Positions 26,465 to 29,056 of a DNA stretch of 47,496 bases are shown in pieces. Position numbers and translations under genes: made by a program. A model generated the notes under the pieces. It worked only from the letters and a program-made list of their open reading frames with translations, made no database searches and had not been told where the DNA came from. Source of the DNA: an archaeon (GTDB taxonomy: Archaea > Thermoplasmatota > Thermoplasmata > Methanomassiliicoccales > Methanomethylophilaceae). The stretch is from positions 1-47,496 of the forward strand of contig JAKSHX010000004.1 of the NCBI GenBank assembly GCA_024399155.1, read 5' to 3'. Numbering within the stretch: the first letter of the stretch is position 1; each line of letters opens with the position of its first letter.

Positions 26465-27454
26465 ATGAAAAATAGAATACCAAGTGAGCTAGAAGCTTTA
26501 TGGAAAGAAAAGGACTTTGCTAATGGTAAAACTGTCGATACTATGGTTATGATTATGCGCACCAACGGGTGCGCATGGGCAAAGAAGGGCGGATGCACTA
26601 TGTGCGGATATCGTTCCGCATCATTAAACAATGTAACAGCCGAAGATTTGCTGAAACAACTAGATCAAGCGACATCAAAGTATAAAGGCGAACCATTCGT
26701 CAAGATTTACACGTCTGGAAGTTTTCTCGATGAAGAAGAGATTCCTGCTAATATAAGAAACAAAATATTTGATGCATTTTCCGAATGTAAACGCATCTTG
26801 TTCGAGAGTCGTCCAGAATTTATAACCCGTGACGTATTGTCCACTTTACCTTCATCATCGACCATAGCACTAGGGTTGGAGACACACGATCAGGTAATTA
26901 TGGAAAAAAGTATTAGAAAAGGCTTCACACCAGCGCAGTGTGAAGCAGCCGGAAATATTGTAAAAGATTGTGGGTTGTCTGTAAGATCATATCTTCTCTT
27001 AAAGCCATTATTTATGCAAGAGATGAGAGCAATTAGTAGCACTATAGAATCAGCCAAATTTGCCGACTCGTTTTCTGATGAAATTTCAATAAATCCTATA
27101 AATGTTCAGAGTGGCACTGTTGTCGAGCATATATGGAAGAGAGGTGATTATAGACCTCCATGGGTGTGGTCTTTAATCGAAGTTATGAAACAACTATCTG
27201 GCACTGTTCGCTCGAGGATAATATCATCGCCTTCTGGGGGAGGATCGTTAAGAGGGGTACATAACTGTGGCACATGTGATCAATCGGCACTTAAAGCTGT
27301 AGAAAAATTTTCGTTCTCTCAGAATATAAATGATTTAAGCGTTGAATGTAAATGCAAGACTAAATGGAAAAATTATATAACGTCAGAATTGCTGCTCGGC
27401 ACTTCTGCAGATCTTGATAGAGAATTTGACAGTAGTTTGATGATAAAGAGATGA
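26465..27454 (+). CDS. raSEA: archaeosine biosynthesis radical SAM protein RaSEA
   Basis: RaSEA works with ArcS to convert preQ0-lysine at tRNA position 15 into archaeosine. The 329-residue protein has the atypical cluster segment NGCAWAKKGGCTMCGY (residues 35-50), with the three cluster Cys spaced C-x7-C-x2-C. The family-typical IYTSGSFLDEEEI, ESRPEFI and IALGLETHDQVIMEKSIRKGF follow. A C-terminal Cys cluster (CGTCD and CKCK) is also usual. No ArcS is in view. The DUF5611 gene overlaps its stop by 4 nt. Confidence 0.9.
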   Translation: MKNRIPSELEALWKEKDFANGKTVDTMVMIMRTNGCAWAKKGGCTMCGYRSASLNNVTAEDLLKQLDQATSKYKGEPFVKIYTSGSFLDEEEIPANIRNKIFDAFSECKRILFESRPEFITRDVLSTLPSSSTIALGLETHDQVIMEKSIRKGFTPAQCEAAGNIVKDCGLSVRSYLLLKPLFMQEMRAISSTIESAKFADSFSDEISINPINVQSGTVVEHIWKRGDYRPPWVWSLIEVMKQLSGTVRSRIISSPSGGGSLRGVHNCGTCDQSALKAVEKFSFSQNINDLSVECKCKTKWKNYITSELLLGTSADLDREFDSSLMIKR

Positions 27455-27786
27455 ATTTTATGAATTACGACATTAAAAGAGGATGGATGAAGAATATTGA
27501 AGGCAATCTTCTCCCAAATATGATGAAAGAAATATTTGGGAATGTGATAGAACAGCAAGGTACCTTTGTATCGTCTTATGGTGTCATGGCCAAGATTAAA
27601 GTGAAAATATTATCAGAAAAAGTACTTGATGTTACTGTTGAAAACGTGGCTGATCTTCAGAACAAGTATAGTGCCGAGGATCTCGATGTAGCGATCATCG
27701 ACAGTAAAAGAAACCTTAACATTTTTATGGAGAGAGCTACCGGTTTTAACATCAAGGAAAGAAAAAAAAGAATGCAAAAAAGGTGA
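27451..27786 (+). CDS. DUF5611-family protein
   Basis: This 111-residue protein resembles the DUF5611 family that I know from Thermoplasmata. It has NYDIKRGWMKNIEGN, SSYGVMAKIKVKI, a middle beta segment (KVLDVTVEN) and an IDSKRNLNIFMERATGFN-like end with a basic tail (KERKKRMQKR). There are no cysteines for zinc and no membrane segment. The basic tail suggests nucleic acid or ribosome contact. Its ATG overlaps the RaSEA stop, so the two are co-transcribed. The function is unknown. Confidence 0.75.
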   Translation: MNFMNYDIKRGWMKNIEGNLLPNMMKEIFGNVIEQQGTFVSSYGVMAKIKVKILSEKVLDVTVENVADLQNKYSAEDLDVAIIDSKRNLNIFMERATGFNIKERKKRMQKR

Positions 27787-27849: not shown

Positions 27850-27866
27850 AAATTTATATATAAAAT
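27850..27866 (+). promoter_or_regulatory. TATA box of the ribosomal protein operon
   Basis: AAATTTATATATAAAATA is the strongest TATA-like match upstream of L3. The transcript should start near 27880-27895, leaving a leader of about 165-175 nt before the L3 ATG. Confidence 0.6.
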
Positions 27867-27902
27867 ACCTGTACGCATCTCGAGATTAATACGCAAGATA
27901 TT

Positions 27903-28057
27903 CGGCCAGACACGTCGGGCAATGCAATGAGCAACCCAAATCCAGTCTCATGTCGGTACTTATCGGGACGTGTGTGCGGTGTCACGGCCGGGGATTTAGA
28001 CGTTGAAATCGACTAAAATGTGAGATTAGCGGATGCATTCTCACAGGATGTGAAATT
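27903..28057 (+). promoter_or_regulatory. structured 5' leader of the ribosomal protein operon, candidate translational switch
   Basis: The leader is markedly more GC-rich than other intergenic DNA here. An outer stem CGGCC/GGCCG (27903-27907, 27986-27990) encloses ACACGTC/GACGTGT (27910-27916, 27967-27973) and a distal ATGAG/CTCAT hairpin (27927-27931, 27947-27951). A GATTT/AAATC stem follows at 27993-28010. TGTGAGA/TCTCACA (28019-28025, 28039-28045) directly precedes the Shine-Dalgarno GGATGTGA (28046-28053). TCACA at 28041 and 28061 can each also pair with TGTGA at 28049, hiding the Shine-Dalgarno site. This looks like ribosomal protein autoregulation; the ligand is unknown. Confidence 0.6.
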
Positions 28058-29056
28058 ATGTCACAAAGGAGACGTCCAAAGAGGGGGTCACGCGCGTACG
28101 GGCCCAGAAAAAGAGCGCAATCGCAAACACCCCGCTTAGATTCTTGGCCTAATACGTCAGGGACACCCAAGATTCAGGGATTTGCCGGATACAAGGTCGG
28201 TATGACACATACTTTCATAATCGACAATCGCGCAAGTTCAACAACATCCGGAATGGAACTCCAAGTGCCGGTCACAGTACTTGAAGTCCCTCCGATGAGG
28301 ATAGCGGCGGTTAGATTTTACGAGAACACAATTTATGGATTCAAGACTATGGGTGAAGTGTGGGCACAAGATCTCGATCCTCTGCTTACGAAGCGCCTTA
28401 ATGTCCCAGAATCCCACGAAGAATCATCACTCGATAAATATGATCTTGCAAGTGTTGAAGACATCCGTGTGATTGCTTATACCCAGCCAAAAATGATCAA
28501 AGGAGTGCCAAAAAAGGTTCCTGACATAATGGAACTTAGGATCGGAGGCGGGTCTATCAGTGAAAGACTTGCTTACGCGAAAAAAATTATTGGAAAAGAC
28601 ATTGAAATCAGCGATTTTACCGTGGAAGGGGCATTTGTAGACGTTGTAGCGGTTACTAAAGGAAAAGGATTCCAAGGTGCTACCAAGCGTTGGGGTATCA
28701 AACTCCTATCTCACAAGAACAGCAAGCATCGCCGCGGTGTAGCTAATCTGGGGCCCAAGAGACCCGGATACGTTAGAAGTACAGTTCCAGCATCCGGTCA
28801 AATGGGGTATCACCAAAGAACTGAGTTTAACAAACAGCTTGTGAAGATTAGTGGAGATGGATCTGAAATTACACCTAAAGGAGGGTTTCTCAATTACGGG
28901 AATGTCATCAACACATATGTTCTCATTCGTGGATCGATCCCAGGTCCCGCAAAAAGGCTTGTGAGGCTTAGAGATCCTATTAGAGCATCCACAAATGACA
29001 GCACTGAGGCCATAGATATCACCTACATCTCGATAGCATCTAAACAGGGGGCGTAG
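28058..29056 (+). CDS. rpl3: large ribosomal subunit protein L3 (uL3)
   Basis: L3 is an early-assembly protein of the large subunit with a loop near the peptidyl transferase centre. The 332 residues match archaeal L3. The start SQRRRPKRGSRAYGPRKRA is conserved, FAGYKVGMTH follows, and TKGKGFQGATKRWGIKLL with the downstream HRRGVANLGPKRPGYVRST loop is diagnostic. It is first in the operon, behind the structured leader, with GGATGTGA as Shine-Dalgarno site 4 nt before the ATG. The stop is TAG. Confidence 0.98.
   Translation: MSQRRRPKRGSRAYGPRKRAQSQTPRLDSWPNTSGTPKIQGFAGYKVGMTHTFIIDNRASSTTSGMELQVPVTVLEVPPMRIAAVRFYENTIYGFKTMGEVWAQDLDPLLTKRLNVPESHEESSLDKYDLASVEDIRVIAYTQPKMIKGVPKKVPDIMELRIGGGSISERLAYAKKIIGKDIEISDFTVEGAFVDVVAVTKGKGFQGATKRWGIKLLSHKNSKHRRGVANLGPKRPGYVRSTVPASGQMGYHQRTEFNKQLVKISGDGSEITPKGGFLNYGNVINTYVLIRGSIPGPAKRLVRLRDPIRASTNDSTEAIDITYISIASKQGA

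Follow-up and report, generated by a model that had tools for sequence, protein, structure and literature searches.

A putative autoregulatory leader RNA of the L3-L4-L23-L2 ribosomal protein operon, widespread in Thermoplasmatota

In the stretch of archaeal DNA analyzed here (47,496 nucleotides from a member of the Methanomethylophilaceae, referred to below as the window), two copies of the pentamer TGTGA, at 28019 and 28049, alternate with two copies of its complement TCACA, at 28041 and 28061, around the start of the gene encoding ribosomal protein L3. These coordinates, as first reported, are exact. Do the four pentamers form a translational switch of their own, or do they belong to a larger regulatory RNA? 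Our analysis favors the second answer: the pentamers probably represent the 3' end of a structured mRNA leader of ~176 nt (about 27882-28057) of the L3-L4-L23-L2 operon, a judgment made jointly with the one on its autoregulatory role given below.

The L3 start site and the four pentamers

The first gene of the operon, rpl3 (L3/uL3), extends from 28058 to 29056 on the forward strand and was identified with the NCBIfam models PRK04231.1 and TIGR03626, both above cut-off; these archaeal L3 models also back the start at 28058. Upstream of it, at 28046-28053 (forward strand), the octamer GGATGTGA agrees at 7 of 8 bases with GGAGGTGA, the complement of the 3' end of the genome's own 16S rRNA. Because L3 starts at 28058 and the 16S rRNA ends in GGATCACCTCCT, GGATGTGA is a plausible Shine-Dalgarno sequence, and it does contain the third pentamer, as had been proposed. 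The fourth pentamer was likewise correctly placed inside the L3 coding start, where it covers codons 2-3 (TCA CAA) and encodes Ser-Gln (or Pro-Gln) of L3. In relatives, it drifts to CCACA, TCGCA, CCGCA, CCAGA, or TCGGA.

Strictly alternating runs of a pentamer and its complement within 47 nt were found twice in the 47-kb window, where first-order Markov resampling predicted 0.45; resampling of the local 75 nt gave such a run in 3 out of 5000 cases. The alternation is uncommon, not striking. It partly reflects unrelated constraints, since the first two pentamers form a hairpin, the third belongs to the Shine-Dalgarno sequence and the fourth to codons 2-3.

Architecture and conservation of the leader RNA

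Relatives were found by means of the L3 protein, which was present in all 60 related genomes, and the upstream DNA of 59 loci of the order Methanomassiliicoccales was aligned, the window's own included. Conservation among these 59 leaders reached far beyond the pentamers, and the pattern.[AG]CC-A-GAC...GGG-CAA-TG...CA-W-CCC...GTC-AC-GGT fitted all of them, with small variations. We built one covariance model of the 5' domain from the 59 leaders (R1) and another from 74 class-wide sequences (R2). On the window, both matched end to end over the 110 nt from 27882 to 27991 (forward strand), with E-values of 1.1e-16 for R1 and 1.1e-15 for R2, the window sequence being among those used to build each model. 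The R1 match was the sole one in this genome at E<=10. We define this region as the 5' domain of the leader RNA, composed of the helices P0, P1, P2, and P3, all on the forward strand, as are the elements downstream.

The core formed by P1, P2, and P3 is a three-way-junction domain. P1 (27904-27989) pairs GGCC-A-GACAC (27904-27913) with GTGTC-AC-GGCC (27979-27989), leaving a conserved A opposite AC, and is supported by covariation and by the window fold. Across 73 distinct class-wide sequences, 97.3% of its cells were paired and both sides had changed at five of the nine pairs; the helix shifts from GACC-A-GACGC/GCGTC-AC-GGTC to AACC-A-TACAC/GTGTA-AC-GGTT, with the internal A/AC unchanged. P2 (27917-27937), a hairpin of the form GGG-CAA-TGC-loop-GCA-A-CCC with a 3x1 internal loop, has the same two kinds of support, with pairing in 99-100% of cells class-wide and compensatory changes in the upper stem from TGC/GCA to TCC/GGA or CGC/GCG. 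P3 (27949-27972), a variable hairpin with the arms CATGTC and GACGTG, was found in the window fold, and its columns covary in part in the alignment. As read from the sequence, P3 was lost in one lineage (loci L128, L255, L259, and L260), so that P1 and P2 can be regarded as the minimal core.

The 5'-terminal hairpin P0 (27888-27902) pairs AATA (27888-27891) with TATT (27899-27902) and was placed by class-wide covariation, with changes on both sides at all five positions of the class-wide alignment. It is weak in the window genome, where the minimum-energy fold lacks it, and stronger in relatives. Between the core and the L3 start, a possible lineage-specific linker hairpin, P4 (27996-28016; TTAG/CTAA), can be read from the sequence, outside the minimum-energy fold, which recovered P1, P2, P3, and the last hairpin, P5 (28019-28045).

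P5 is the helix formed by the first two pentamers, TGTGAGA (28019-28025) and TCTCACA (28039-28045). This seven-base-pair pairing, which had been predicted, is a genuine helix: in 36 leaders of the window's family, it varies with compensation (GCGAGA/TCTCGC, GCGAGG/CCTCGC, and GACGAGA/TCTCGTC, versus TGTGAGA/TCTCACA in the window), with 88% of cells paired, changes on both sides at five of the seven pairs, and a covariation score of 0.224 versus 0.118 after shuffling (0/500). Within the window's family (L001-L035), the P5 loop hardly varies and reads TTAGCGAAGA; the window, where it spans 28026-28038, departs from this with TTAGCGGATGCAT. In several sister families, a TTAGCG motif is also present on the 5' side of P5. 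The P5 loop may serve as a recognition site.

Class-wide, 14 of the 20 pairs showed changes on both sides (73 distinct sequences), and the covariation score was 0.355, versus 0.123 for shuffled alignments (0/500) and at most 0.077 for slid controls. Two of the three covariation alignments, including that of 73 sequences, were fitted to the model and thereby lean towards the structure; the third, made without the structure, which was then placed by hand, agrees. Covariation thus supports the secondary structure of the leader, as expected of a ribosomal-protein leader (r-leader). Compared with shuffles, the window leader did not have an unusual folding energy (z -0.27 for the whole leader, -1.09 for 27980-28100, and -1.60 for the 3' part), and the case for structure therefore rests on covariation.

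Distribution of the leader and its link to L3

The leader RNA was present in all 59 relatives of the order with enough sequence. R1 matched 155 of 300 genomes of the class Thermoplasmata, and R2 matched 150 of 196 class genomes of good quality; we presume that the class genomes compared include those of Aciduliprofundum boonei, Thermoplasma acidophilum, and Thermoplasma volcanium. The RNA also occurs in other classes of Thermoplasmatota, including marine relatives, and the named carriers among the matches listed included Ferroplasma acidarmanus, Acidiplasma aeolicum, Poseidoniales, and Methanomethylophilaceae. A scan of GTDB genomes with the exact pattern gave at least 80 matches, and those listed bore Thermoplasmatota names or unspecific archaeal or euryarchaeal ones. 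With R2, we detected no copy in one family (f14), for which many near-complete genomes were listed.

With both models, the leader was nearly always found as a single copy per genome. One genome (G225) contained two copies (L124 and L125), one of which ended at a contig end, and this may reflect a duplicate or contaminating contig.

Of 40 distant loci found with the models, 39 had L3 as the next gene downstream, the exception being L124, which stops at the contig end; at one locus (L129), the spacer was unusually long and the match weak. The same was true of 20 out of 20 further model matches, including Thermoplasma, and, among the matches listed, of all 72 named pattern loci with enough downstream sequence.

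Predicted promoter and 5' end

A TATA-like promoter box, TTTATATA (27853-27860, forward strand), was recognized by its near-fixed spacing upstream of P1, of about 50-52 nt (full range 47-55), in 58 of the 59 leaders of the order. In archaea, the distance from the TATA box to the transcription start is usually about 25-30 nt. From the position of the box and this spacing, the start is predicted near 27882-27885, at about the first base of P0. In these 58 leaders, the RNA lies between the box and L3, which places it in the predicted 5' untranslated region, as for an r-leader. Since the predicted start lies well upstream of 28019, transcription starting downstream of that position, which the original prediction could not accommodate, is unlikely. 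Matches to sigma-70 promoters were set aside as irrelevant to an archaeon. Further upstream, the window encodes the archaeosine synthesis radical SAM protein RaSEA (26465-27454, forward strand), followed by an unassigned open reading frame of 111 amino acids (27451-27786).

Proposed mechanism

We consider it fairly likely that this RNA is an autoregulatory leader controlling initiation at L3; the ligand, the repression, and the role of P5 are what we infer within that reading. In all known cases, the ligand of an r-leader is encoded by a regulated gene (PMC7247131). When ribosomal proteins are in excess, a protein encoded by the operon would bind the P1/P2 core; by analogy, the most likely candidates would be L4, favored by precedent, and L3, favored by adjacency. 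The bound protein would stabilize the core near the ribosome-binding site and thereby lower initiation at L3, and translational coupling would carry this lowered initiation to the whole operon.

P1 and the ATG are separated by 11-19 nt in genomes of Thermoplasmatales and of the Aciduliprofundum type, by 61-84 nt in the window's family, and by 77-104 nt in its sister families. In the short-linker genomes, P1 is so near the ATG that a bound core would cover the Shine-Dalgarno sequence directly. In Methanomassiliicoccales, the extra domain with P5 between the core and the start probably transmits or supplements the effect. A constant core and a variable linker fit a sensor joined to a changeable expression platform.

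Mimicry of rRNA is common, not universal, among r-leaders. Comparison of the core with the genome's own 23S and 16S rRNA by covariance model, and with the 23S rRNA by sequence and motif scan, gave no convincing likeness. A weak similarity between P2 and a hairpin of the 23S rRNA (GGCAATG...CA..CC) was set aside as likely due to chance. We put forward only tentatively, and would sooner doubt than accept, the wider reading of an ancient, undescribed Thermoplasmatota-wide leader family in which an operon protein binds a minimal P1/P2 core without rRNA mimicry, and in which a hairpin added beside the Shine-Dalgarno sequence in Methanomassiliicoccales converts that binding into a start-site switch.

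The strong conservation could instead serve mRNA stability or constitutive translation, with a structured 5' end that protects an abundant mRNA or keeps the start open, free of regulation by a ligand. Such a role would suit an element that begins at the predicted mRNA 5' end and whose P5 hairpin, in the window fold, isolates the Shine-Dalgarno sequence from the sequence upstream. We nevertheless judge it unlikely, as the internal loops (CCAnAC / GUnACGG and GGGnnA / WCCC) are conserved more than a plain stem needs, which suggests specific recognition.

The pentamers as a two-state switch

In the original prediction, pairing of the first two pentamers leaves the Shine-Dalgarno sequence exposed, and pairing of the second with the third, or of the third with the fourth, hides it. 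The pentamers are present as this design demands, and the covariation of helix 1-2 can be counted in its favor, but the same test applied to the two hiding pairings in the 36 leaders gave scores no different from those of shuffled alignments (0.078 versus 0.085 for pairing 2-3, and 0.117 versus 0.114 for pairing 3-4). Of the covariation expected among the four pentamers, only that of helix 1-2 was thus borne out, the fourth pentamer drifting as described above.

Two of the proposed pairings are also compatible with each other. The best fold of a local stretch of 60 nt contained hairpins 1-2 and 3-4 together, so these are not alternative states, and pairing 2-3 appeared only ~2.7 kcal/mol above the best fold. 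When a slightly different stretch was folded, hairpin 1-2 formed and 3-4 was absent. For pairing 3-4 in the window's family, own partners had a slight edge over shuffled ones (24/1000); shared ancestry could account for this. Because pairings 2-3 and 3-4 lack covariation and 3-4 can coexist with 1-2, the switch is unsupported in the window genome.

Energies of pairing between the P5 arm and the Shine-Dalgarno sequence pointed the same way in the window's family, where the arm was the best partner in 1 of 36 leaders, with other parts of the leader better in 35, and where an arm paired no better with its own Shine-Dalgarno sequence than with those of mismatched species (386/1000). Among 22 leaders of the sister families f2-f6, 13 had the 3' arm of P5 (CTCTC) as the best Shine-Dalgarno partner anywhere in the leader. 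Between the two clades, the window's family and f2-f6, arm complementarity was kept (own pairing -7.06 kcal/mol versus -6.04 kcal/mol shuffled, 0/1000), a result that may reflect a single event confounded with phylogeny. Inside each clade, the pairing energy stayed the same when arms and Shine-Dalgarno sequences were exchanged among species. No alternative Shine-Dalgarno pairing conserved by compensation was found in the window's family; the other families of the order showed complementarity, without covariation within groups.

In the last 60 nt before L3 in the sister families (L037-L058), the CTCTC arm complements the Shine-Dalgarno sequence GAGGGAG(AATC) with up to nine pairs. As read from these sequences, such leaders are more promising than the window itself as carriers of an anti-Shine-Dalgarno switch, and a switch of this kind may operate in f2-f6. 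For the pentamers as originally conceived, we regard it as improbable. Control of the operon by its leader is plausible, as had been predicted; the hiding pairings of the two-state pentamer design lack covariation, and the larger RNA upstream had been missed.

It is more improbable still that the P1-P3 junction is a riboswitch that binds a small molecule (e.g., one signaling growth or stringency) and not a ribosomal protein: the core is compact and multi-branched, its internal-loop nucleotides are near-invariant, and it lies ahead of a growth-related operon, as would be in keeping with one, but the association is with the L3 operon only and no metabolic gene, and no Rfam riboswitch family matched at permissive thresholds.

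As an autoregulatory leader, the RNA probably lets the cell adjust its ribosomal-protein output. A phylum-wide RNA present in culturable species such as Ferroplasma acidarmanus would open the control of archaeal ribosome synthesis to direct test, and its short versions, in which 11-19 nt separate P1 from the ATG, have the simplicity that in vitro binding and reporter experiments call for. The RNA further offers an evolutionary case in which the stretch from core to start varies from ~11 to ~100 nt around a constant, sensor-like core.

Comparison with known systems

Against the 4227 families of Rfam 15, no match came near the gathering threshold; the best E-values, 1.1 for the window and 0.71 for ten class-wide leaders, were at chance level. 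No paper describing the leader was found in a search of the openly accessible literature. With no Rfam match and no such paper, we file the RNA as a putative new r-leader.

The bacterial S10-operon leader likewise heads an operon with L3, L4, L23, and L2, and the two would share autoregulation, which is inferred here. That leader is regulated by L4, and the E. coli operon begins with the gene for S10. We know of no sequence similarity between it and the window leader, which belong to different domains of life. Among the established bacterial r-leaders, one has L4 as its ligand (PMC7247131).

Few cis-regulatory RNAs are known in archaea (PMC7247131). One comparable case is that of archaeal L7Ae (PMC5539422, PMC6298567), also a ribosomal protein proposed to control translation through its own structured leader. 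The L7Ae system uses a k-turn, whereas the internal loops of P1 and P2, inspected by eye, show no k-turn pattern, and control by L7Ae was therefore set aside; L7Ae was not among the operon genes examined.

Closest by description, and a precedent in kind, is the borderline L4 r-leader candidate that Eckert and Weinberg (2020, PMC7247131) reported from Archaeoglobi, where it lies ahead of rplC-rplD; the main text of their paper does not mention Thermoplasmata. Unlike the window leader, this candidate is restricted to Archaeoglobi; the window leader may be a separate, undescribed RNA or an extension of that published motif. Like the window leader, the candidate is a conserved RNA that precedes an archaeal rplC-rplD-rplW-rplB operon, and it has been proposed to bind L4.
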